Shown piece by piece: positions 9,507 to 63,297 of a stretch of DNA of 64,000 nt. The notes under the pieces are model-generated. The model worked only from the letters and a program-made list of their open reading frames with translations. It was not told where the DNA came from and did no database searches. Within the stretch, counting starts at the first letter, position 1, and each line of letters begins with the position of its first letter. A program made the position numbers and the translations under genes. Source of the stretch: Astropecten irregularis (lineage: Eukaryota > Echinodermata > Asteroidea > Paxillosida > Astropectinidae); contig OZ020258.1 in NCBI GenBank assembly GCA_963971285.1, forward strand, positions 620,001 through 684,000, in the 5' to 3' direction.

Positions 9507-9810
9507 TTATAGTGTCGACTTTCCTTCCTCCATGGTTTCGACCATGTGCGTCAAGTTATGTCTGTCCTAGTCTGTTAAAAAAATGAAGAGACGAGTATAG
9601 AAATATACAATCTAAACGTTGCCGCATATTCTATTCACAAACCTCTTCAAAAATTGTTATTGCAACATCGAGATAAAGTACAATACCAGTGTACCGGTAT
9701 ACAATCACTGATTTAAAACAGATCAAAATCGACACTCGCTATTATCTTGAAGTTGAACACGGGTGAAAAGGCACCGATTGATGAAAATGTTCAGAGAATA
9801 ATTAATATAT

Positions 9811-10001
9811 GATGTATAGGCCTAGATTTTCAAATAATGTTAGAAGATTGGCGATTCAATCTTCCTAAAACATGATGTACAGGCCTAGATTTTCAAATAA
9901 TCATGTTAGAAGATTGGCGATTCAATCTTCCTAAAACATGATGTACAGGCCTAGATTTTCAAATAATGTTAGAAGATTGGCGATTCAATCTTCCTAAAAC
10001 A
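9811..10001. repeat. 65-bp tandem repeat, three units
   Basis: Three consecutive units run at 9811-9873, 9874-9939 and 9940-10001 (63, 66 and 62 bp). Each carries AGGCCTAGATTTTCAAATAA (the first has TAGGCC), then GAAGATTGGCGATTCAATCT. The middle unit has an extra ATC. Each unit contains an 8-bp stem, GAAGATTG with CAATCTTC around a six-base loop, so an RNA from this region would form three identical hairpins. Near-identity implies recent expansion. Confidence 0.92.
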
Positions 10002-14175: not shown

Positions 14176-15741
14176 AAGCATAGCGCAATGCAGAGAATCA
14201 TACAAGGATTAACGTGATCATATCAGGTATAACGAGTAATGACATACATCCTATGTGGAATTCAAATATGTAATACAGACTCCCTAAAGTCTACATTAAC
14301 TTCTTCCACCTATATTAAATCTAATTTCCGTTGTACAAACGTGTCGAATAATTCCCAAACTCTACATTCACCATACAAATCTGACAGAAATTCGCGACTA
14401 TAGAAAACATAGAAATTCCAAACTCAATTATTCGCAGTCGTAGAATATCTAAATAGGCCTATAGCCAATATAGCCAACTAACCTTTTCTTGATACTTTAA
14501 TTGCACAGGATTGGAGAGCAGAAATACCTAGCGTTAGTAATTACTAGATCGTCCGATACGATAACATTGAACGTCTTAGATTTATGATTATACTCTACCA
14601 CGGAATTCACAAATTCGTCTGTAAACATTCAAAAATGGATTCCATGTACTTGTATTTCAATTCGTAACCTATAATTAAAGTAAGCTGAATTATCGGATAA
14701 ATTAAAGTCAGTAACATCTTGGGAATCTTGCTGAATTGAACCCGACCATAAATTACTAATGTACCGAATATCATACCCTTATTGGGTGTCTAAATGTACG
14801 CCAGGAATGATGAAATATATAGCCTCAAAAACTCATTTCCTCTCAAACATCTTGGAGGCCTACACTTCTTGATTTCCCTATAGTGTCTTTTATTACAAAC
14901 GAGTGAAGAGCTTTCCTTGTTTCAAAATGGTGCTTCTCGACCTCGTCCTCTGATTATTATTTTTTAGAGTGATGCTTAATGTTATTAAGTTTTTCTTCTT
15001 TGAAATCAAGTTGTAATACATTCATTTCGATATAAACCTAAGCACGGTGCAGCCAGTCCCGACATTGTGTCGCCACACCGCCAATCTCTGATGACATTTT
15101 AACCGAACAGCATTGCTTGATGGACCGTAATCTAAATTCGTGTCACGGTAAATTAAAGCGAGAAATTATCTGAAATATCTGGGGTTGTCTCTTTCAAATC
15201 TTTACAAACCACGGCGTCTTGTCTCGCTCAAATATTGCTTAATTAGAAATGCGGGCAGAATCTGACACATGACAAAAAGAAAGGAAAGGAGGGTATAACC
15301 GGTAGAATGATGGTATAGGAATACAGACATGACCGTCGCCAATCTCTGATGAAGACACAGAAATTAGCATCTAGGTATTCTACTTGCTGGAAAGAAGATA
15401 GCAATCATAAAGAAGGTGCATGGCAATCAGAGGATGACATAGAATCCATTCAAGCGATACTACACTGCAAAGGTGAACTAGTGTTCACGATTAAACATAA
15501 CCAGAAAGAAAACGACAACGAATACGAAGCAAAAACCAAAAGGCACTCGTACGTACCGTTCAACATATCATTTTCTTTAGATATTTTGGGAGATATTTTC
15601 ATTTCTCTTTTGTTATGAAAATCTCATTTTTGACACAATATTTGCTAAAAGATAAGCATAAGTATTGACAGTTGATTCCAAATAATTCTGGCTCAATTGT
15701 AATTTGACTGGAGGCATCGTGTGTTTTTGTTAAATAAGACT
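14176..15741. other. 1.6 kb unassigned stretch
   Basis: AT-rich, with TAGGCCTAT-type motifs near 14455. A plus frame at 15349-15618 (89 codons) is hydrophilic and Lys/Glu/Asn-rich in its first two thirds, but no family is recognised. No gene called. Confidence 0.35.
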
Positions 15742-15966
15742 TGAAGCTAGCTATGCATGGTGGTACGGTAGTACTAAAATAAGGTAGGTTTGCGGTGACA
15801 ACGTGAGAGTGTGTGGTTCTGAGAAGAACCGTAGGTATTATCTCGACGTTCCGAACAGTGTGCTCTGTTCGTCTTCAGAAGGAACGTCGAGAGATAATAC
15901 CACCGGTTCTTATCAAAACCACACTCTCACAGAAGAGTACATGGTGTCAACGCAAACCCACCTTTT
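15742..15966 (-). repeat. family G foldback with ribozyme-like centre
   Basis: Two family G copies are joined head to head. The left arm (15782-15852) and right arm (15879-15966) are inverted copies sharing GGTTTGCG, GAGAGTGTG, AAGAACCG, GGTATTATCTC and GACGTTCC. The right arm keeps a 15-base stretch, ACCATGTACTCTTCT, that the left arm has lost. The centre, on the minus strand, has CTGAAGA, a perfect 6-bp stem GAACAG/CTGTTC with loop AGCACA, then GGAAC and GTC, a hammerhead-like layout with altered core bases. The open frame across this stretch is a by-product. Confidence 0.75.
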
Positions 15967-16447
15967 GAGTTGTTTTTCTGTATATTTTTCAGTACGTTGT
16001 ATAATGCAGATGGATATCGGTCTGATGTTATTTCACGTGACGTTTTTTACTCCCAGGTATATACCCATAACGCAGTTATCCAGTGTCATGAAAAAAAATA
16101 TCCTAATTGTATCAAATCAAACCAGGCAGATATTTGTCAGTTTCTATTCCAATCGATGCTTTGGCTTGCAACAAGACATCCTCTCTTTGATGCTTCTAGC
16201 ATGGATTGAATTATCTAACACCATAGAGAGATGCTGTTAACCTCCTTTCAAATATTATTGCTGTACTATCCAGGAAGATGTAGGATGGCAAGTCATAGCT
16301 GGTTGGTATTATTGCTAGTCTCTTTCTCACACGGCCACTGGGGGATTTTATCGATCAAAACAGCGGAGCGGTGACACTTGCATTTCCCAGAATGCAAGTT
16401 GAATCCAGACCGGTCCTTTGACAACTGAGAGCCGCTGAGCGAGACAT
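15967..16447. other. unassigned stretch
   Basis: Short overlapping open frames run to 16240 out of the foldback. Nothing recognised. Confidence 0.3.
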
Positions 16448-22821: not shown

Positions 22822-23152
22822 ATAAAGGTAATTTCATATACTTAAATTTTCTCAAAATTTCAAGAAAGATTCAGTATCAGTCATCTGTGAAAATCCCAGT
22901 TCTATATGGTGCCCACGTTTTGAGAAAACAGTGAAAAACAACCACAGTTTTTTAAAATCTTTTCCCAGGATTTTGCTCTTCCGAAGATCAAAATTGTTCT
23001 TGGTAATTGGTTTTATACTTTTATTTCAGGCAGATAAATGTTAACGTATATATTTCTACCGTCACCATCTTTATACCCTGTAAGTTATAGGTAAATCTGT
23101 GGAGATTTCTGTTTCGGTATATGCTATACCAAAGTATGATACTACCTTTAAG
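22822..23152 (+). mobile_element. family D TIR element
   Basis: Left end AATAAAGGTAATTTCATATA is decayed. Family landmarks follow: CAGTCATCTGTGAAAATC, TTTTGAGAAAACAGTGAAAA, AGATCAAAATTGTT, TTTCTACCGTCACCATCTTT and ACCCTGTAAGTTATAGGTAA. The right TIR, CCAAAGTATGATACTACCTT, is intact and followed by TAAG. Confidence 0.85.
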
Positions 23153-23944: not shown

Positions 23945-24116
23945 GCACATGACTAGAAAGATTTTAGACTTTGCATGGTGACAATTGGTATGTGGATTGG
24001 TTTGCGGAAACACCATGTGAGAATCGTTCGTACTTCCGCACTTCTATTTTGTTCGCACTTCTCGTAAGGTCTCAACGTTTCGACTAGCCTGCTCTAGTCA
24101 TCATCAGGAAATGAGA
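23945..24116 (-). repeat. family G copy with near-canonical hammerhead core
   Basis: Carries GACTTTGCATGGTGACAATT, GGTTTGCGGAAACACCATGT and TTCGCACTTCTCGTAAG. A fragment at 58900 shares the first and last blocks and lacks the middle. The minus-strand right end holds a ribozyme-like fold, listed next. Likely a piece of a Penelope-type retroelement terminal repeat. Confidence 0.7.
24070..24115 (-). ncRNA. hammerhead-ribozyme-like motif
   Basis: On the minus strand: CTGATGA (24107-24101), one extra T, stem II GACTAG (24099-24094), loop AGCAGG, CTAGTC (24087-24082), then GAAAC and GTT (24081-24075). TTTC before the core and GAGA after it can pair as a 4-bp stem I (one wobble). CUGAUGA, a perfect stem II, GAAAC and a GUH cleavage triplet are the defining hammerhead elements. 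The very short stem III (AC/GU) is the minimal type known from Penelope-like retroelements. The extra base before stem II is unusual and may weaken or abolish activity. Confidence 0.5.
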
Positions 24117-25066
24117 TGAGAACATGACTAAATATCACCAGATAAACATCTTTCTGAGCTTTTTTTTTCAGTTCAGTTCTCTGCAAAACCTGATTCCTAA
24201 AAACCTAGGGAATACCCGGTCCATAATTTCAGAAAACGACCTGCAAAGATTGGCGCTACTGATTAGATCTTCCCTCTGTGCTTGGTAATCATTCTCTCTA
24301 GCCAAAACTTCAGAAATCCAGCAAACCTTAGGATTCTTTCCCTTAAAATTTCAATCTAAACCCTCCCAATTTTATGCCTACATGGTGAACGAACATGCCT
24401 TGCTCCTTGTTCTTCAAGTGTTTGTTGTGCCGTACAAACGCCACTTATGACGGCGAGAGCGCCTAGCGTTATTCCAATCAATACTTGCCTTGAACAAATC
24501 CAATATCACCGCTAGCCGTACAGACCACCGTTTACAGTCCCCAAAAGGCGAGCGGTATTACCATGTTGGGTTTGTAGATCAAGGCAGTCTGCCCCGGCGT
24601 GTTTTCATTTTACGTCTAATCGTGTTCTCGGTAAAAATTAAACACCAAGACTTGATCACTGTAATCAAGTCAGACATTTCGTACCGGCGATGAAACGTAA
24701 GTTAAATCGTTGTAGTTGGTCTTATTTTCATGCTGAGCTGCAGCTAGTTGGTGAGCAATTGGATATTAATAATAGAATCTGCTTTTTAGCCTTAATATAG
24801 TATCTCTATATCTCTTACTGTCTTTTTGTAGTAAAATTAAAAATTCCAGACCCCAATTTTGATTCATGTGGAAAGCTCAATAAATGTCATGAATAAACAA
24901 ACCAACCCACGCTGCATTGCATAAATTCATTACTAGCTTTCAGTCAACCAACATTCATGATTCCTATCCAGCATGGTTGAATCAATCTGTGCAAGTAAGA
25001 GCCACTTCCGGTACAATCACCCCAGACTTTCTGTGCAGAAATTTATTAAGGGCCTTTACTTGGAAG
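24117..25066. other. 950 bp unassigned stretch
   Basis: A short plus frame at 24490-24693 has no recognised domain. No repeat family copy. Confidence 0.3.
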
Positions 25067-27319: not shown

Positions 27320-27545
27320 TATTACCTGATGACGGCTTGGCCCTACTGGTGGAAACGTTGGGCTTCCATCAGCTACTTACTCTCTTACAGCCAATAAATA
27401 AGACTTGAAGCTATGCATAGTGAAAGTACTAAAAGAAGGTAGGTTTGCGGTAATCTCTTCTGTGAGAGTGTGTGGTTCTGAGAAGAACCATTGGTATTTA
27501 TTCTCGACGTTCCGAACAGTGTGCTCTGTTCGTCCTCAGGAGAGT
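27320..27545 (-). repeat. family G copy
   Basis: ACTTGAAGCTATGCATAGTG (27402-27421) through GGTAGGTTTGCGG, GAGAGTGTGTGGTTCTGAGA and AGAACC matches 15755-15830. The minus-strand ribozyme-like core reads CTGAGGA, C, stem GAACAG/CTGTTC with loop AGCACA, then GGAAC and GTC with GAGA to pair with TCTC. A second, plus-strand CTGATGA...GAAACGTT pair lies at 27326-27359, but I cannot draw a convincing stem II for it. Confidence 0.68.
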
Positions 27546-29198
27546 GACTGGTTGCCTGTTTTGGAAGATGCTGAATATAAGTGCCAAGGATGCACTCTTA
27601 CAACCAGTTTTTGCTTTCACAAGGCTGATAAAGTATACCATCCAAAACGACTTGTGTACCTTTAATGTGAATCAGGCTAAACATGAATACGTCGTGTATA
27701 GATGCTGCTATCCTGTCACCAGCTTGTGGGATGTCATCCTCTCTACCCTACACGGACCTGTCACACCTTATCTAGTTATAGGTGTTGCTTGTTCCCATTT
27801 CCCCGTAATACGGTCAGACAAACGGGGTTTGTCTCACATGGAATCGTATTGATTGTTCTGAACCTGACATGTTGGAATTGTTGACATAATAATTTTAGTG
27901 ATATTTCTACCTCCGTGTCTTTGTCTTAATAAGAGAAAGTTAAGCCACTGAGTAGTCTTTGTAAAGGCAATGATATCGTCATTCAAAAGTTGATAATATA
28001 GCCCCCACCCCAAGGATCATTCCCAGAAATTGCATCAGTGAGATTTATTACAAAATCACGGCGCCTTTTTTAACCTTGAAAATGACTGTCCTTGCAAAGA
28101 TTTCGCCAAGGAATAATAAGAAACGCATTGATTTATGAGGAGAGATAGGTCAGTCCAGAAAATGATCAAGGCCATCTCAGATGAAGACCACGCTTTAGTG
28201 CCCTGGTGCTAGCTGTGATGACATGTCATTCCCTTGCAGTGTTACGGCTTCAACTACAAGCCGAAGTCTGACGAGTGAGTCTAGCTCACAGACTGTTGAT
28301 CCGGAGCTAGCACGCAACGTCACCCGATCCTGTGCCAGGGCTATGCACGTCGCTATCCAAATATTATGGCGGGTGTAGATCTTGTCTTGAATGTTCGTGA
28401 TGACCAGGAGCAGTGTTTCTATTAGGGATTGTTTCAATAGCAAGATCATACATGGCATAGTTCAAGTTGACACAAGTAAGGTTATTCCCCTTTTGGCTTC
28501 CTCGTCTGTTCATTCTGTCTTTTTTTTCATTTGTAGTGAAATGAATGCTTGGTAACTAGTCCAAGATTGTTATAGGATTTATTCTTCCGTTCTTGGGGAC
28601 ACTGAAGTCTGTTTACGTTGCTTGAAGCTACTTGAGTATGTCGAGATTGAGGATGTGGCAGGTGGTATGTACACCATTGACACTTGATACCAGGAGGCAA
28701 AAATGCTCATCAGTGAGTTCCCTAAGGGATAATAGGAAGATGAGCACCTCAGTACATACCTACCTGTCTACACCCTTTATCACCTGTTTGCCTACTTTAT
28801 CACGGATATCAATATTGAATCGTGTACATGTAACCTGCTCAACCTCAACAAAATAACTGCGAAGAAGAATTCCCTCATTAGCTGTGAGGCGAGTCGAATC
28901 ACACAGCGTCTTGCGTGGTCACAAACGCTCACTATAGACGGTACCACTTGCTCTGTTGCATCTCAGGTTGTCAATTCAGCACGGTGTGTAGGTATACACA
29001 GCGTAGACAGACGGGTATTTGCGTCTAAATCGTCGCCCCTGGCTCTCCCCCTCTCTCGCTCTTTCTCCCCGTCTCTTCTTTCTAGTTTCTGCGGCAGCGA
29101 AGAGGACCCTACTCCAGCACCGATTAAAGGTTCTAATCACCAACTGCTGATGCAATCGCTTTACGGTCGATGGGCCCAACCCTGGGACGGAAGCTTTT
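27546..29198. other. 1.65 kb unassigned stretch
   Basis: Includes a possible microexon at 28240-28274 and a CT-rich tract at about 29035-29090. Open frames on both strands (27472-27852, 28195-28458, 28632-28856) have no recognisable family. Confidence 0.3.
28240..28274 (+). other. possible 35-nt microexon
   Basis: CATTCCCTTGCAG immediately upstream is a good splice acceptor and GTGAGT immediately downstream is a good donor. The 35 bases between them read CYGFNYKPKSD in one frame. The minus strand is also open here, and no neighbouring exon is identified. This may be chance. Confidence 0.15.
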
Positions 29199-30130: not shown

Positions 30131-30473
30131 TTTAAAGGTAATACCATACTGTGTTTTTTGTCTAAGAAATACAGATTCGTGGTCAAAAAATATAAAAGAA
30201 GATACAGTAACAGTCATCTGTGGAATTGTCAGTCCCATACATTGCCCACAATATGACAAAACAGTGAAAAACGCCCACAGAAGTATTTTTAAAATCTTTT
30301 CACCGTTGTGTTTGTTCCTTGGTTTTTACTCTTTTCTTGATATATACAACATATCAGGGAGAAACATTTAAACGGTATTTTTCTACCATCATCATCTTTA
30401 TACCCTGTAAGTTATACGTAAATCTGTAAAGATTTCTGTTTCGGTATGCTGTCAAAGTATGATACTACCTTAA
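30131..30473 (+). mobile_element. family D TIR element, complete copy
   Basis: Left end TTTAAAGGTAATACCATACT; right end AAAGTATGATACTACCTTAA. Family landmarks between them: AAATACAGATTCGT, AACAGTCATCTGTGG, AAACAGTGAAAAACGCCCAC, TTTCTACCATCATCATCTTT and ACCCTGTAAGTTATACGTAA. Flanking bases are compatible with a TTAA target. Confidence 0.87.
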
Positions 30474-33394: not shown

Positions 33395-35645
33395 AGCACT
33401 CCTGTCCTCCTTACACCCTACAGTATATACACCTCAGATGTAGCATATTGTTGCAGCAAAGTATAGTGTGAAAATGAATAAGATAGTTCAGGATACAGCT
33501 GTTTCCACAAATGGCGCTGCTGTACAAGGTGCGGCAAGACGTCATGTTTCGTACTGAATCTTCCTTTCAACAAAACTTGAACATGGTGCCTTAGCCTGTA
33601 CATATACCTCACCTATACTGTGCGCCAGACTAATTTGGACCTCTGTCTGCGTTGACTTTGGTGCGTGAACGGAGTGCTATACTGAAAGAAATTGTATCTT
33701 CTGAAGCTACGGTTCCTGATTGGACAATGCTAATTGACGGTTCCCAATAAACCTCTTTCAAAACATGTCCACACAAGTCCATGATACCAAACCAAACTGT
33801 AGCAATACAATGCTCCTAATACAATGCTCCTTACGTATATTGATGCCGAGAATGTCCAATACAAATTGTTGTTATATTAAAGTATGATAACAACATAAAA
33901 CATGCGTCATTTGAACTTGTGTACCTAATTGCTCTAATTACGTTTAATGTACATTGCTCAATGATTTCACAGTCAGAATGCATTGTATAGCTTCTTTGTT
34001 TTAATACCTGCTAAGTTGCCAGCCATGTAGTTAGTGCATCTCTCTATCTCCATTGATTACCACCAGTGCAGCTGTAAGGAGCATTTTATGAAGTGATAAA
34101 CAATCCTTGTAAGATGTAGGAGTGGAAGTGTGCTGTCAGTAAATGTCACTTTAAAGAAAATTAGTCGTAAACAACCAAACTGCCACATAAAACTCACCAT
34201 AACCTATGATTATTGACATTTAATACTGGAATAAAGTTCCGACTTCAAATTGAAGATTGGACGGCAATTAATTAGCTACGCTGTATTCTTTATAGGACAC
34301 TAACCATTAATGGACACCAAGCTGAAAACAAAACAATGATGAAATTTTAACAGACGACAAAACAAGTCCACTGAGTAGTTTTCATTCAATGACGTCATCA
34401 ATCCTGATGAAATTACCTGTTACCATTATCAATTTTGACATTTAAGATCGACATCAAATTGTTGTTCCCTCTGTGATTTTGGAATAACCTGTTGAACGAT
34501 GCATTAGCCGTAATGTTCCCACTTTTATTTCATTTTTTTTGTGGGGTGTTATTTTTTTTCTTCCCAATCCATTTTGTAGAAGGCTGACCCCTGTTAACCC
34601 GCGTCAGGATCGATACTAGCAAACGCGTGCATTTGCGTACGTGATATTTGGCGCCTTTTCTCGTCTATGTCGCCTGCTTTTTGTTTCCTGCACGTTGCCA
34701 TGGAGAATCTGTACGATGTGGGACAATAAAGTGACAAATATAAACAGGAACATTTTCTGGACGCGCGTGACTTCAAGATTTGTGTCTAGTAATAATTATA
34801 AGATGAGAGAATACAGATTTGAAAGGTAGATAGGTTAATGTCTGCTGGCAAGATGTACAAGTTTGAAGAGAGAATAACCAATCAACAAACCTCCAAGCGA
34901 ATCAATGGTAACCTGAGCTAATAACAGTGGTTGTGTGCTGATTGAAAACTTAATCCTAGCTTAAACGTGGACTCGAATACAATCTACCTGTATTCAGCAA
35001 ACCTTTAGTTATAATGATAATAATTCCTATGCCTGCTGCCTCACAGGAAGTATGTATGTTCCTCTCGAAGGACATTATTGTCACAATAATTCCCGATGAA
35101 CTGGATATGAATTCACCCGGTTTTGTACACATACAGATTCCACAACATACCTTTACACTCCAATTTCACATGAGCATACTATATATCCATAGGCCATCGC
35201 AGATGACACCAAATACATACCATCCTTACGTGGATATTATTACGAAATTCGATATGTATTAGGTTTTTACTAATAGGGTCTACAGGGTGTTACACTTGGT
35301 GAAGTCTGTGCTAGCCTGGGTCGCCCTATGCGTCTAATAAGCACGCAGCTACAGTATGATGTACGTGTTTCCCAGGCTATGGGATTGAGCTTACCCAGTA
35401 CGACGCCTAGAATGCTAGATAGTCTTGCACATTTCTTATTTTGTAATCAAGGGAGAAATGCTCGCATACTGTCTGTCATTGCGTACTTTGTTGCATTCTG
35501 ACTGCGCTGATAAATCCGTCATCCGGGAATGCTGTGTCATTTGGATATCTACATGAAAAGCACAACATTGCTGCCGTTATATTATTATGAATACTGAATA
35601 ATATGAAACGAGTATAGTAATTTTTGCATGGTTGAGAGACTAGAA
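33395..35645. other. 2.25 kb unassigned stretch
   Basis: A 14-bp tandem duplication is at 33804-33831. GTTGCCATGGAGAA at 34694-34707 is a partial X-box. Small frames (34594-34829, 35014-35262) lack recognised domains. Confidence 0.35.
33804..33831. repeat. 14-bp tandem duplication
   Basis: AATACAATGCTCCT occurs twice in direct tandem. Confidence 0.9.
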
Positions 35646-35790
35646 TGAGTAACTTGGACGGCGGTGCGGAGACACCATGTATAACACTCTTCTTGGAAGG
35701 TGTGTGGTCCTGAGTAGGACCGATGAGAGTAAATTCTCGACGTTTCGACTAGTGTGCTCTGGTCGTCCTCAGGAGAGAGAAAGAGAGAGA
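35646..35790 (-). repeat. family G copy
   Basis: GGTGCGGAGACACCATGTAT, AACACTCTTCTTGGAAG, GTGTGTGGTCCTGAGTAGGA and CGATGAGAGTAAATTCTC match the minus-oriented copy at 40345. The ribozyme-like core (minus) reads CTGAGGA, C, stem GACCAG/CTAGTC with loop AGCACA, then GAAAC and GTC, with GAGA pairing to TCTC for stem I. GAAAC is intact; the core T is G. A GA-rich tail follows. Confidence 0.72.
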
Positions 35791-39998: not shown

Positions 39999-40344
39999 GT
40001 CGTCTTGATTAGACAAATTAAGCGAATCTACAATGTTTGTCCTCGAATAACCTAAAAGCGTTGAGCCTTCAATTGGCTGATATTTCGAGTAAAATGATGA
40101 AAAGGTGAATTTTGATTGATATGGCATTCTTCAGTATCCTATTGCATTTCCAATTTCAGATGAAAGTAACAATAGACCTTACCTTTCCATCTGAAATGTT
40201 GTCGTGTTTATACAGATATCAGTTACTTTGCCATCTTTTACTGATTGGAATATGCGACATTGGGTCCATTGCTGAGAGAAAAATCTCACCAATTAAAGCT
40301 CAAACAGTATCACTCGTATCAATCATAAGGAATATACTTTGGGA
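39999..40344. other. unassigned stretch
   Basis: Part of an open frame (40112-40459) that runs into a family G copy. No recognised domain. Confidence 0.3.
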
Positions 40345-40455
40345 GCACACTGGTCAAAACGTCGAGAATTTACTCTCATCGATCCTTCTCAGGACCACAC
40401 ATCTTCCAAAAAGAGTCTTATACATGGTGTCTCTGCAAGTCTTACTTATTGTTTG
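40345..40455 (+). repeat. family G copy, inverted orientation
   Basis: AGCACACTGGTCAAAACGTC, GAGAATTTACTCTCATCGAT, CCTTCTCAGGACCACACATC and ATACATGGTGTCTCTGCAAG correspond to the reverse of 35646-35762. Only the 3' half of the ribozyme-like core (stem II partner, then AAAAC and GTC) remains; the CTGATGA half is gone. Confidence 0.68.
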
Positions 40456-45247: not shown

Positions 45248-45580
45248 CTTTAAAGGTAATAATATCATACTTTGATTTTTATCAAAGAAATACAGATTCA
45301 TGGGTAACAAAATATTAAGTCAAATACAGTAACAGTCATCTGTGAAAATTTCAGTCCCATACGGTGCCCACTCTTTGAGAAAACGGTGAAAACAGCCACA
45401 GTATTTTTTAAGCCTTTTCTCTTTTATTTTTGATCTTTTAAAAGATCCAAAAGATTTTCGGTCCTTGAAAAATGTTAACAGTATGTTTCTACCAACACCA
45501 TCTTTATACCTTGTAAGTTATACGTAAATCTGTGAACATGTCTGTTTTGGTTTCTTACCAAAGTATGATACGACCTTTAA
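45248..45580 (+). mobile_element. family D TIR element, complete copy
   Basis: Starts TTTAAAGGTAATAATATCAT and ends AAAGTATGATACGACCTTTA. Carries GAAATACAGATTCATGGG, AACAGTCATCTGTGAAAATT, TTGAGAAAACGGTGAAAACA, AGCCACAGTATTTTTTAAG and CATCTTTATACCTTGTAAGT. Both ends keep the family TIR and are flanked by TTAA-compatible bases. Confidence 0.88.
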
Positions 45581-57820: not shown

Positions 57821-58899
57821 AAATTTCCTAGTGCTTTATCGAAAAGTTTAAAAAAGAAATCAATTTATTATTTTCAAAAGTCCGACTCTCGTCTAACTCC
57901 AATGACGTTATCCACATTAAGTTTCAAGAGTCAATAATTTTATTCCAAATTAAACGAACAAATTTTGGGTTTTTTTTCCATGAAATTCTCATTTTCATCA
58001 GTTCTATAAACAAAATTCTAACATTATCATTAATCAATAATGTTTTCCTGAATATAGTTAATTGCTTATCATCTGCAAAGATGACAGCAACAGAATAACA
58101 TTTCTTGTAAGAAAACTATATTCACATTCCAAAGAGCAATATCAACCTTTTTTTTCAATGAAGTCCGCGGTTGAATGGAGCTTACATGCCCTTTATGGAT
58201 ATCATCACCGTGAATACTCTAGACAACCACAGGTCAAACCTCCCGTGAAGACGAGGCCAGCGGTTGCACAGTATGATCAAGTGGATAGCTTTGAAGAGCA
58301 CGCGAAAATATAAACATAACCGCTGTTATAATCTATACGGGCTGAATAACTGGAATCTTAATCATAATTAAATTAAATCAAACACAATTTCACGCTGTGA
58401 AATCAAAACTTGAGCCTCTTTTGAAATAAAGTTAAGTTTGATTCTGTATGCATTTCATTCTTACTGCGCCATTAGTGGGTATAGGTTATACACACATATC
58501 AATTATAATTTGATAAATATCCAGGTTTCTGGAATGTAACTCTTGTGGTGAAAAATTAAAATTGTCCACATAATAGCGACCCACTCAAACAATTTACTTA
58601 TTAAGCAAAATATCTCTGAACTTGATGCTCAATTTGACTATTTAAAAGGGCAATTTGTTGTTCTCATTTTTAACTCAGATTGTGAAATAACCTGTATTTC
58701 TGGTACCAATCATTCATTCTGACGGCATGTACAATTGTAGCATCCGTCAGGTAATAGGTATCTCAATGCAGATTGGTAGCAGAATAATACTTCAGACATA
58801 ATACTTCAAAATACCTTTTGAATATCAAATCCCCTTTTTGAAGTCGCGGCATGTTTCATTGTGGATTCATTACACACAAGGCTCATTAAGGTTAAGTCA
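57821..58899. other. 1.1 kb AT-rich unassigned stretch
   Basis: A short frame at 58062-58313 has no recognised domain. No repeat copies matched. Confidence 0.3.
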
Positions 58900-58990
58900 A
58901 GAAAGATTTAGGCTTTGCATGGTGACAATTGGTATGTGGATCGTTCGTACTATCTCACTTCTATTTCCTTCGCACTTCTCGTAAGTTTAA
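58900..58990 (-). repeat. family G fragment
   Basis: GGCTTTGCATGGTGACAATT, GGTATGTGGATCGTTCGTAC and TTCGCACTTCTCGTAAG match 23970-24067. The block GGTTTGCGGAAACACCATGT present in the 23945 copy is absent, and the ribozyme-like end is not reached. Confidence 0.7.
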
Positions 58991-61448: not shown

Positions 61449-62139
61449 TTAAACGTATTATACATGATTGATAAAGGTCACAGAACAGCACTCACACTTT
61501 GTCTGATCAAACATGTACATGAAATAATAAACCTGTGAAAATTTGAGCTCAATCGGACATCTGAGTCACGAGAAAATGTTGTTCTTCCCTGGGCCGATTT
61601 CATAAAGATCTGCGACGCGTCGCAACTCGATTTGCGACGCGTCCTAGCTGCGACGCGTCGCATCTTTGCGATGAGTCCTACTGTCCATAGAGTATGGATG
61701 CGTCTTAACTCTGCGATGCCTAGTAATTAAGTTTGATGAAATCGGCCCCAGGTCTCTAAAGGAAGGGGCGGGGCATACAATCCCATCCACCCATCTGACA
61801 TTTGCCACACAAGAAAGGAAAAAAACAAATCTGCATACATAAAATAAACAACCTGTGAAAATGTGAGCTCAATCGGACATCTGAGTCACGAGAAAATGGC
61901 GAAAACCTGACTCAATTTTTCTTATAAAACATGAAGAATGGTTTTGATTTTTATAAACCCCAAGATCAAAACTGTTTTCGGTCTTTGTTTTACTTATTTC
62001 TGGAAAAATACATCATTTCAGGAGGAAATATTTTAATTGTATATTTCTATCAGCACCATCTTCATATCCAGAAAGTTATACGTAAATCTGTGAACATTTC
62101 TGTTTGGGTATGTTACCAATCCTGTATTGTATCTTTAAG
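61449..62139 (+). mobile_element. family C TIR element interrupted by family B
   Basis: The left part ATTATACATGATTGATAAAG, ACTTTGTCTGATCAAACATG and TTTGAGCTCAATCGGACATC matches 22189-22070 in reverse. The right part ATGGTTTTGATTTTTATAAA, AAACTGTTTTCGGTCTTTG and CAGCACCATCTTCATATCC completes the C layout to TTACCAATCCTGTATTGTAT. A family B element splits it, and a 48-bp block is duplicated on both sides of the insert (61531-61578 and 61851-61898, one mismatch). Confidence 0.85.
61579..61828. mobile_element. family B element, copy 2 (nested)
   Basis: Same layout as 59484: TTGTTCTTCCCTGGGCC, GATTTCATAAAG, three GACGCGTC-centred palindromes, then GATGAAATCGGCCCC and AAAGGAAAAAAACAA. It retains TACTGTCC, which is missing from copy 1. 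It lies inside a family C element. Confidence 0.88.
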
Positions 62140-62934: not shown

Positions 62935-63297
62935 CTTTAAAAGTAATATCATACTTTGGTTATTGTCAAAGAAATGCAGATCCATGGGCAAAAATTTCAA
63001 GAAAGATACAATAACATCAATGAAAATTTCAGTCCTATACGGTGCCCACATTTTGAGAAAAAGACGGACAAACGTCCACAGTACTTTTTAAATCTTTTCA
63101 ACTTTATTTGTGATCTTTAAAAGATCATAATTGTTTTTAGTCATTGGTTTCACTCTTTTCTGGATAAATACAGCATTGCAGGCAGACCATTTTTAACGGT
63201 ATGTTTCTACCATTGCCATCTTTATACCCTGTAAGCTATACGTAAATCTGTGGAGATTTCTGTTTCGGTATGCTACCAAAGTATATGATACTACCTT
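62935..63297 (+). mobile_element. family D TIR element
   Basis: Left TTTAAAAGTAATATCATACT; right CAAAGTATATGATACTACCT. Landmarks GAAATGCAGATCCATGGGC, TTTTGAGAAAAAGACGGAC, TTTTTAAATCTTTTCAAC, GGTATGTTTCTACCATTGCC and TACCCTGTAAGCTATACGTA are in family order. Open frames on both strands within it are by-products. Confidence 0.87.

Follow-up and report, generated by a model that had tools for sequence, protein, structure and literature searches.

Does a short repeat in the genome of Astropecten irregularis carry a hammerhead ribozyme and, if so, what kind of mobile element left it there? The original prediction placed a near-canonical hammerhead core of the kind known from Penelope-like retroelements on the minus strand of the 64,000-nucleotide stretch of DNA analysed here (the window). 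Penelope-like elements carry minimal type I hammerheads without helix III, which may cut as dimers, according to two reviews (PMC6155905, PMC7761336). Little is yet understood of the mobility of these elements, and what their hammerheads do is called a mystery in one of the reviews (PMC7761336). The family described here is short, has many similar copies and shows clear footprints, and it thus offers natural evidence on whether both target strands serve for reverse transcription, as they do in vitro with the anole protein (PMC11167929), and a simple substrate for asking whether hammerhead cutting matters.

The candidate minimal hammerhead lies at 24070..24111 of the minus strand, in a repeat copy called B (Table 1). 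Its letters, confirmed one by one, run CTGATGA, T, GACTAG, AGCAGG, CTAGTC, GAAA, C, GTT, and bear out the parts originally named, which were CTGATGA, a 6-bp stem II (GACTAG/CTAGTC) with the loop AGCAGG, GAAAC, GTT and a 4-bp stem I. Together they supply the CUGANGA, stem II, GAAA and NUH of a hammerhead in a three-way junction, with a predicted cut site between 24074 and 24073. A core pattern allowing up to 3 mismatches had 2 matches in the 64-kb window and 0 in 100 shuffles; a stem-aware descriptor matched the window only at 24107 and 35772, both on the minus strand, and had any match in just 1 of 300 first-order Markov sequences. The hammerhead-like motif is real and lies beyond chance.

Table 1. 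Positions of the repeat copies and their parts, and of a second repeat family, in the window
Feature	Position	Strand	Remark
Copy B, short retroelement copy, motif near 5' end	23956..24121	minus	ends placed by direct repeats; nhmmer 23951-24111
Direct repeat TAGTCATGT, 5' side of copy B	24122..24130	minus	probable target-site duplication
Direct repeat TAGTCATGT, 3' side of copy B	23947..23955	minus	
Stem I of copy B, UUUC/GAGA	24108-24111/24070-24073	minus	one G-U pair
C3-A9 of copy B	24107-24101	minus	C3 at 24107
Extra base after A9, copy B	24100	minus	T
Stem II of copy B	24099-24094/24087-24082	minus	perfect, 6 bp, 6-nt loop
GAAA of copy B	24081-24078	minus	
ACGU (stem III) of copy B	24078-24075	minus	two pairs, loopless
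H17 of copy B	24074	minus	
Copy A, hammerhead-like fold, A13 to G	15729..15882	minus	lower-coordinate half of head-to-head pair
Ainv, inverted partner of copy A	15881..16006	plus	5'-truncated after stem II
Copy C, hammerhead-like fold, A13 to G, then histone-type hairpin	27392..27543	minus	
Copy D, full-core motif, C3 at 35772, then histone-type hairpin	35608..35777	minus	
Copy E, 5'-truncated in loop II, without complete hammerhead	40342..40452	plus	
Copy F, B-type body only	58897..58985	minus	start 5-10 nt past predicted cut site
Direct repeats flanking copy F			GACTTAAACTTA/GACTTAACCTTA
Histone-type stem-loop, copy A	15791..15835	minus	RF00032, 26.6 bits, E 0.0027, below gathering score
Histone 3' UTR-type stem-loop, copy C	27450..27494	minus	RF00032, 35.3 bits, gathering score 34
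Histone 3' UTR-type stem-loop, copy D	35681..35726	minus	RF00032, 34.5 bits
Histone-type stem-loop, copy E	40376..40421	plus	RF00032, 25.1 bits, E 0.0097, below gathering score
Second dispersed repeat family	30324-30460, 22997-23133, 45430-45566, 61988-62124, 63148-63284		

The motif departs from a standard hammerhead in two ways. The very short stem III of the original prediction is indeed short, but it is a loopless ACGU, and helix III cannot close inside one molecule. The same ACGU without a loop is present in 6 of the 6 window copies that cover the stretch, and its pairing could take place in a dimer only. The single unpaired base that had also been reported between CTGATGA and stem II recurs in every core examined, including those of the genome relatives described below (46/46 B-type and 36/36 D-type cores). 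A viroid hammerhead with weak activity reportedly has its extra core nucleotide at the same place as here, after A9, and in our cores this base may make catalysis weaker. A viroid hammerhead with an extra core nucleotide and weak activity is mentioned in PMC11014351. The dimer-cutting Penelope hammerhead variants, as presented in papers that cite their descriptions (Lunse, Weinberg, Breaker 2017; Cervera, De la Pena 2014), likewise have a conserved core and no helix III; the cores here may differ from them in the base after A9, and their cutting is predicted. In the minimum-energy fold of the monomer the junction is zipped into a bulged hairpin (-17.6 kcal/mol vs -15.4 kcal/mol for the hammerhead pairs), which counts against the explanation favoured below.

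The Rfam check that had been proposed along with the motif came back empty. Across the window and 40 genome loci (L011-L030 from the B query and L032-L051 from the D query, with L004-L010 and L052-L060 left out) no hammerhead family reached its gathering score; none appeared in the window at E values up to 1, and none in the local 181 bases at E values up to 10. Since the models come without a positive control for loopless variants, their silence weighs little against a hammerhead. A likeness to C/D-box snoRNAs in the local scan was rejected (E 4 and 7.5).

The window holds seven related pieces, A, Ainv, B, C, D, E and F, and a profile built from these same pieces recovers all of them at E 1.8e-8 or better (nhmmer). 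The 3' end of the profile (157-162) is reached by six pieces, with E stopping at 123, and at the 5' side four pieces begin near stem I and three (E, Ainv and F) are truncated further in. Four copies (15782, 27402, 35646 and 40345) had been said to share the fold of copy B. This holds for D, which has the whole core and a single C-A mismatch in stem II, and the fold is also present in A (15878) and C (27539), but in these two A13 is changed to G, as it is in Ainv. The claim fails for E (40345), where G12 is changed to A and both CTGANGA and the 5' half of stem II are missing. Across A-D, N7 alone varies in CTGANGA (A, T, G, G), with C3, U4, G5, A6, G8 and A9 constant. In pairwise comparisons the window copies agree at 62/66 in the 11 strict core columns, 106/138 in the other hammerhead columns and 346/612 in the body. 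The five pairing measures for five window copies are far above slid controls and weak against shuffles, 36 to 444 of 500 of which reach them.

Direct repeats of 9-12 nt flank copies B, C and F, and 0.6-1.9% of random pairs score as high; for the TAGTCATGT repeat of copy B the figures are 0.6% for a narrow search range and 1.9% for a wide one, and the repeat of copy C is found only with a 75-nt upstream range. The repeat at copy D is weaker (10-18% of random pairs score as high), and the same flank test found none at A/Ainv or E. Copies A and Ainv form a head-to-head long inverted repeat around a hammerhead-like stem II (15729-16006); the extent of Ainv is 15881-15937 by BLAST and 15853-16006 by nhmmer, and its far end is uncertain by eye. 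The next match of the seven-piece profile, at E 0.45, is at 27323-27360 on the plus strand. A stretch at 27326-27359 (plus), CTGATGA...GAAACGTT, adjoins the 3' end of copy C, shows no stem II pairing by eye and was set aside as chance or decayed.

We searched the genome (475.7 Mb, 168 contigs) with copies B and D as queries. Copy B gave 55 matches from the best-scoring 40 of 654 candidates and copy D gave 53 from the best-scoring 40 of 1951, and both samples favour intact copies. The B-type set comprises 27 loci and 59 pieces, 46 of which cover the whole core, and the D-type set 29 loci and 42 pieces, 36 of which cover the core. Among these best-scoring copies, all 11 strict core bases and H17 are kept in 38/46 B-type and 21/36 D-type cores, and the core is damaged in 8/46 and 15/36. 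N7 is T in 46/46 B-type cores, and in the D type it is G in 32 and A in 4. Both the damaged cores and the invariant B-type N7 count against the explanation that we favour. The extra base after A9 is T in 35, G in 9 and A in 2 B-type cores, and C in 31 and T in 5 D-type cores. Among the 46 B-type cores (best 40 of 654), 38 have a stem II of six pairs and 8 one of five. Genome relatives often have a longer stem I than copy B, as in GGUCUC/GAGACC, and 27/46 of these cores have 5-6 contiguous pairs there.

Stem II covaries in the D-type copies. In 34 distinct D-type cores from the best 40 of 1951, 190/203 stem II cells are paired, a value matched by 0/2000 shuffles in a test that leaves relatedness among copies in place, and slid controls pair at 5 to 74 of 203-204 cells. 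One of the pairs is TA in 13 cores, CG in 12, TG in 5 and something else in 4. Divergent D-type copies thus keep the core and compensate in stem II, and this conservation and covariation, like the motif itself, can be read directly from the sequence.

The ends of the copies are equally regular. Among the B-type pieces (best 40 of 654), 46/59 begin at reference positions 1-6, on the 5' strand of stem I, where the reference itself is cut, and by eye their upstream flanks look unrelated, the exceptions being neighbours in tandem or inverted order and the L021/L022 duplicates. Their 3' ends cluster at two places, 114-116 in 19/59 pieces and 153-154 in 20/59; measured on copy B, the first base of stem II is 111 nt away from the short end, and another 34 nt separate the short end from the long one. 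The short 3' end is less sharp in the D type. About 50 nt ahead of the motif are common to the C-type copies at window 27550-27600 and L021/L022 (by eye), hinting at a longer parent element and at subfamilies that do not all start at stem I. A segmental duplication seems to account for L021 and L022 (about 190-450 and 520-690).

At the predicted cut site neither B-type nor D-type copies show an accumulation of 5' ends, in searches biased by queries that contained the hammerhead; the templates of these copies were thus probably for the most part not cut there, which speaks against a role for cutting in copying. The lack of such an accumulation is one of the observations that would be expected if the motif were a ribozyme relic, whose letters persist through young copies, protein binding or reverse transcription with no cutting here. 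The change of A13 to G in copies A and C and the invariance of N7 in the B type point the same way. However, divergent D-type copies keep the core (21/36) and compensate in stem II, and N7 varies more than any other position of CTGANGA both among the window copies and within the D type (A 4, G 32), as for a working core. We regard a relic as a serious possibility, if not quite a probable one, and it is compatible with a Penelope assignment.

The arrangement of neighbouring copies tells more about how they arose. B-type neighbours form 15 head-to-tail pairs (8 of them in the L020 array), 11 head-to-head pairs and 1 tail-to-tail pair, with head-to-tail neighbours in 7/27 loci. Grouped into clusters (n=32), they comprise 18 solo copies (10 short, 8 long), 4 one-way arrays and 10 composites with two outward 3' ends. 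Nine of these ten composites join a long to a short end and one joins a long to a truncated end, with 0 long-long or short-short cases, and the B query, which reached neither 3' end, favours neither type. In the D-type composites (best 40 of 1951) exactly one end is long in 12/12, and seven of the partners end at 113-133, as placed by the aligner, the other five ending sooner. Of the D-type solo copies 17/18 are long, from a query that included the long end and so favoured long ends among its matches. Exactly one outward end is therefore long in 22/22 head-to-head pairs, 10 B-type and 12 D-type.

Direct repeats of 8-16 nt flank 13 of these 22 pairs. They score at least 7 in 6/10 B-type composites, compared with 5.4% of random pairs, the best being CATTTAGATTTTG (13 of 13), and at least 8 in 7/12 D-type composites, a count that has no matched background. 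Solo copies give a weaker signal than composites, with a score of at least 7 in 6/18 against a 5.8% background. Because the ends are asymmetric and direct repeats flank the whole, a composite is most simply explained as one insertion event.

These ends and repeats also bear on the proposal that the motif is an ordinary bulged hairpin in a DNA-borne, MITE-like inverted repeat, its hammerhead letters being coincidental. Minimum-energy folds of the monomers are indeed bulged hairpins, inverted pairs are common and covariation in the window copies is weak against shuffles, yet the conserved core letters, the 1/300 chance by descriptor and the covariation in D-type copies all argue against coincidence, and neither the variable 5' truncation combined with two preferred 3' ends nor the differing lengths of the direct repeats suit such an origin. 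We find it highly improbable.

Tandem arrays raise a different alternative, a retrozyme-like element in which hammerhead cutting would yield small RNA circles that are then copied by rolling circle. Head-to-tail arrays with hammerhead-like motifs occur at L020 1898-2733 (nine pieces, 87-bp period, one unit truncated) and L015 1992-2276 (three pieces, 80-bp period), and each has its fuller 3' end on just one end unit. Units of about 80-87 bp with one fuller end copy are reminiscent of animal retrozymes, in which small repeats bearing type I hammerheads stand in tandem (PMC7229834). The family here is similarly short, repetitive, hammerhead-bearing and sometimes tandem, whereas theirs are canonical hammerheads in tandem repeats; here solo and head-to-head copies dominate (18 solo, 10 outward head-to-head and 4 one-way arrays among the 32 B-type clusters), the hammerheads are without the helix III of canonical type I and the base that follows GUH is not where the copies start. 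A retrozyme-like origin is unlikely on this evidence.

The closest likeness is to the pseudo-LTR (pLTR) ends of Penelope elements. In the anole Poseidon element the hammerhead lies at the junction of pLTR and ORF, the ORF begins at stem II, and reverse transcription begins 111-118 bp into the ORF from one of two starts, the stretch between which is a 30-40-bp tail (PMC11167929). The anole protein cleaves and extends both target strands in vitro, and the authors saw the two strands behave alike in where synthesis starts; hammerhead mutants still insert, and cutting required added protein (PMC11167929). In Adineta vaga, Pen families have inverted, mostly head-to-head pLTRs, an optional 31-bp tail on one of the two pLTRs, and duplications of 8-10 bp that are missing at some insertions (PMC3846280).

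The copies studied here resemble these elements in several traits. They have a minimal hammerhead near the ORF-side end, within a terminal repeat as in the Penelope accounts (PMC6155905, PMC7761336), two preferred 3' ends, read as two reverse transcription start sites that give an optional tail (30-40 bp in the anole element, about 31-40 bp for the two elements together), inverted head-to-head repeats with the tail on only one, short target-site duplications, and tandem or partial-tandem copies. The short end 111 nt from stem II and the long end 34 nt on can be set directly beside the anole values. The differences are that the copies here are pseudo-LTR-like only, about 120-160 bp long with a B-type start at stem I, that no protein gene was seen here and that some subfamilies have a histone-type hairpin. 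The assignment to Penelope therefore rests mainly on matches to published Penelope anatomy in ends, tail, pairs and duplications, and the sequence supports the view, also taken in the original prediction, that the family carries a Penelope-type minimal hammerhead in a known kind of element; the core and the missing helix III fit it as well.

We consider it likely that the site is a short non-coding retroelement copy, the pseudo-LTR end of a Penelope element, probably moved in trans, and that it arose as follows. The element of about 120-160 bp would be the terminal part of a Penelope-like element, and the mobilising Penelope-like protein is probably encoded elsewhere. Its RNA would start with the minimal hammerhead, in which an additional base follows A9 and helix III has no loop. 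Through the self-complementary ACGU, such RNAs may pair with one another, as may neighbouring units of a tandem transcript, into a double hammerhead, which would cut after GUH. With both target strands nicked by the protein, reverse transcription would start within the RNA, at either of two sites separated by about 34 nt. Where both strands are extended, head-to-head pairs with one long and one short end would result, and single-sided events would leave solo copies. The ends, pairs and direct repeats in this scheme are observed; the RNA start, the Penelope protein, the double hammerhead, its cutting and the two-strand priming are inferred.

Copies A, C, D and E have in common a histone-type hairpin, with another segment in its place in B and F. 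RF00032 reaches its gathering score in two of the seven window pieces (C and D) and in 11/20 D-query loci, including L033, L045 and L049, with 12 matches of up to 37.7 bits; the 20 B-query loci, a set in which C-type copies occur at two loci as well, gave none. The hairpin is like the histone 3' UTR stem-loop in its 6-bp stem, AC-rich 3' flank and purine-rich downstream stretch and, by eye, in the 4-nt loop UUUC or UCUC of eight D-type copies, whereas here it lies inside a repeat with no histone ORF seen beside it. Histone genes were rejected as its source, with no histone ORF by eye and no histone family among ORFs of at least 85 aa. Beyond the Rfam match copy C extends for another 58 nt and copy D for another 73 nt, which implies that the copied RNAs did not have their 3' ends formed at the hairpin, and for the same reason we rejected it as a reverse transcription start site like that of the anole element.

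If it is functional, the presence of a histone-type hairpin in an element of this kind would be a surprise, and automatic Rfam annotation would call histone signals where these repeats lie. A literature search on histone stem-loops in retroelements returned none on topic, judging by titles and the start of abstracts. One could imagine a Penelope-type element that joined a self-cutting hammerhead to a histone-type hairpin, with its RNA bound by SLBP and perhaps U7 snRNP, and with paired proteins that always start one long and one short cDNA. This would tie RNA stability or 3' end formation to S phase, but we give the proposal as a whole little credence.

Among 51 window ORFs of at least 85 aa, Pfam recognised neither a reverse transcriptase nor a GIY-YIG domain, nor did the 10 scanned of 28 locus ORFs of at least 130 aa contain either domain, and this counts against the explanation that we favour. 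Matches to TraD_N (E 0.003) and Reoviridae_Vp9 (E 0.02) among the 51 window ORFs were rejected. The frame running from a conserved ATGGTG through the tail was uninformative, being open in 2035/5000 shuffles, and the other two frames are open too. Two family patterns scanned on viral contigs gave 0 matches; a generic minimal-hammerhead pattern gave two there, of which one falls within a long ORF and the other in an intergenic stretch between ORFs, both taken as chance. A neurexophilin-like ORF is present in L014 (E 6.8e-14). Elsewhere in the window, positions 9809-10001 hold three tandem copies of a 63-bp unit with 94% matches, and a second dispersed repeat family (Table 1) has five 137-nt copies with 64-85% identity to the reference copy.
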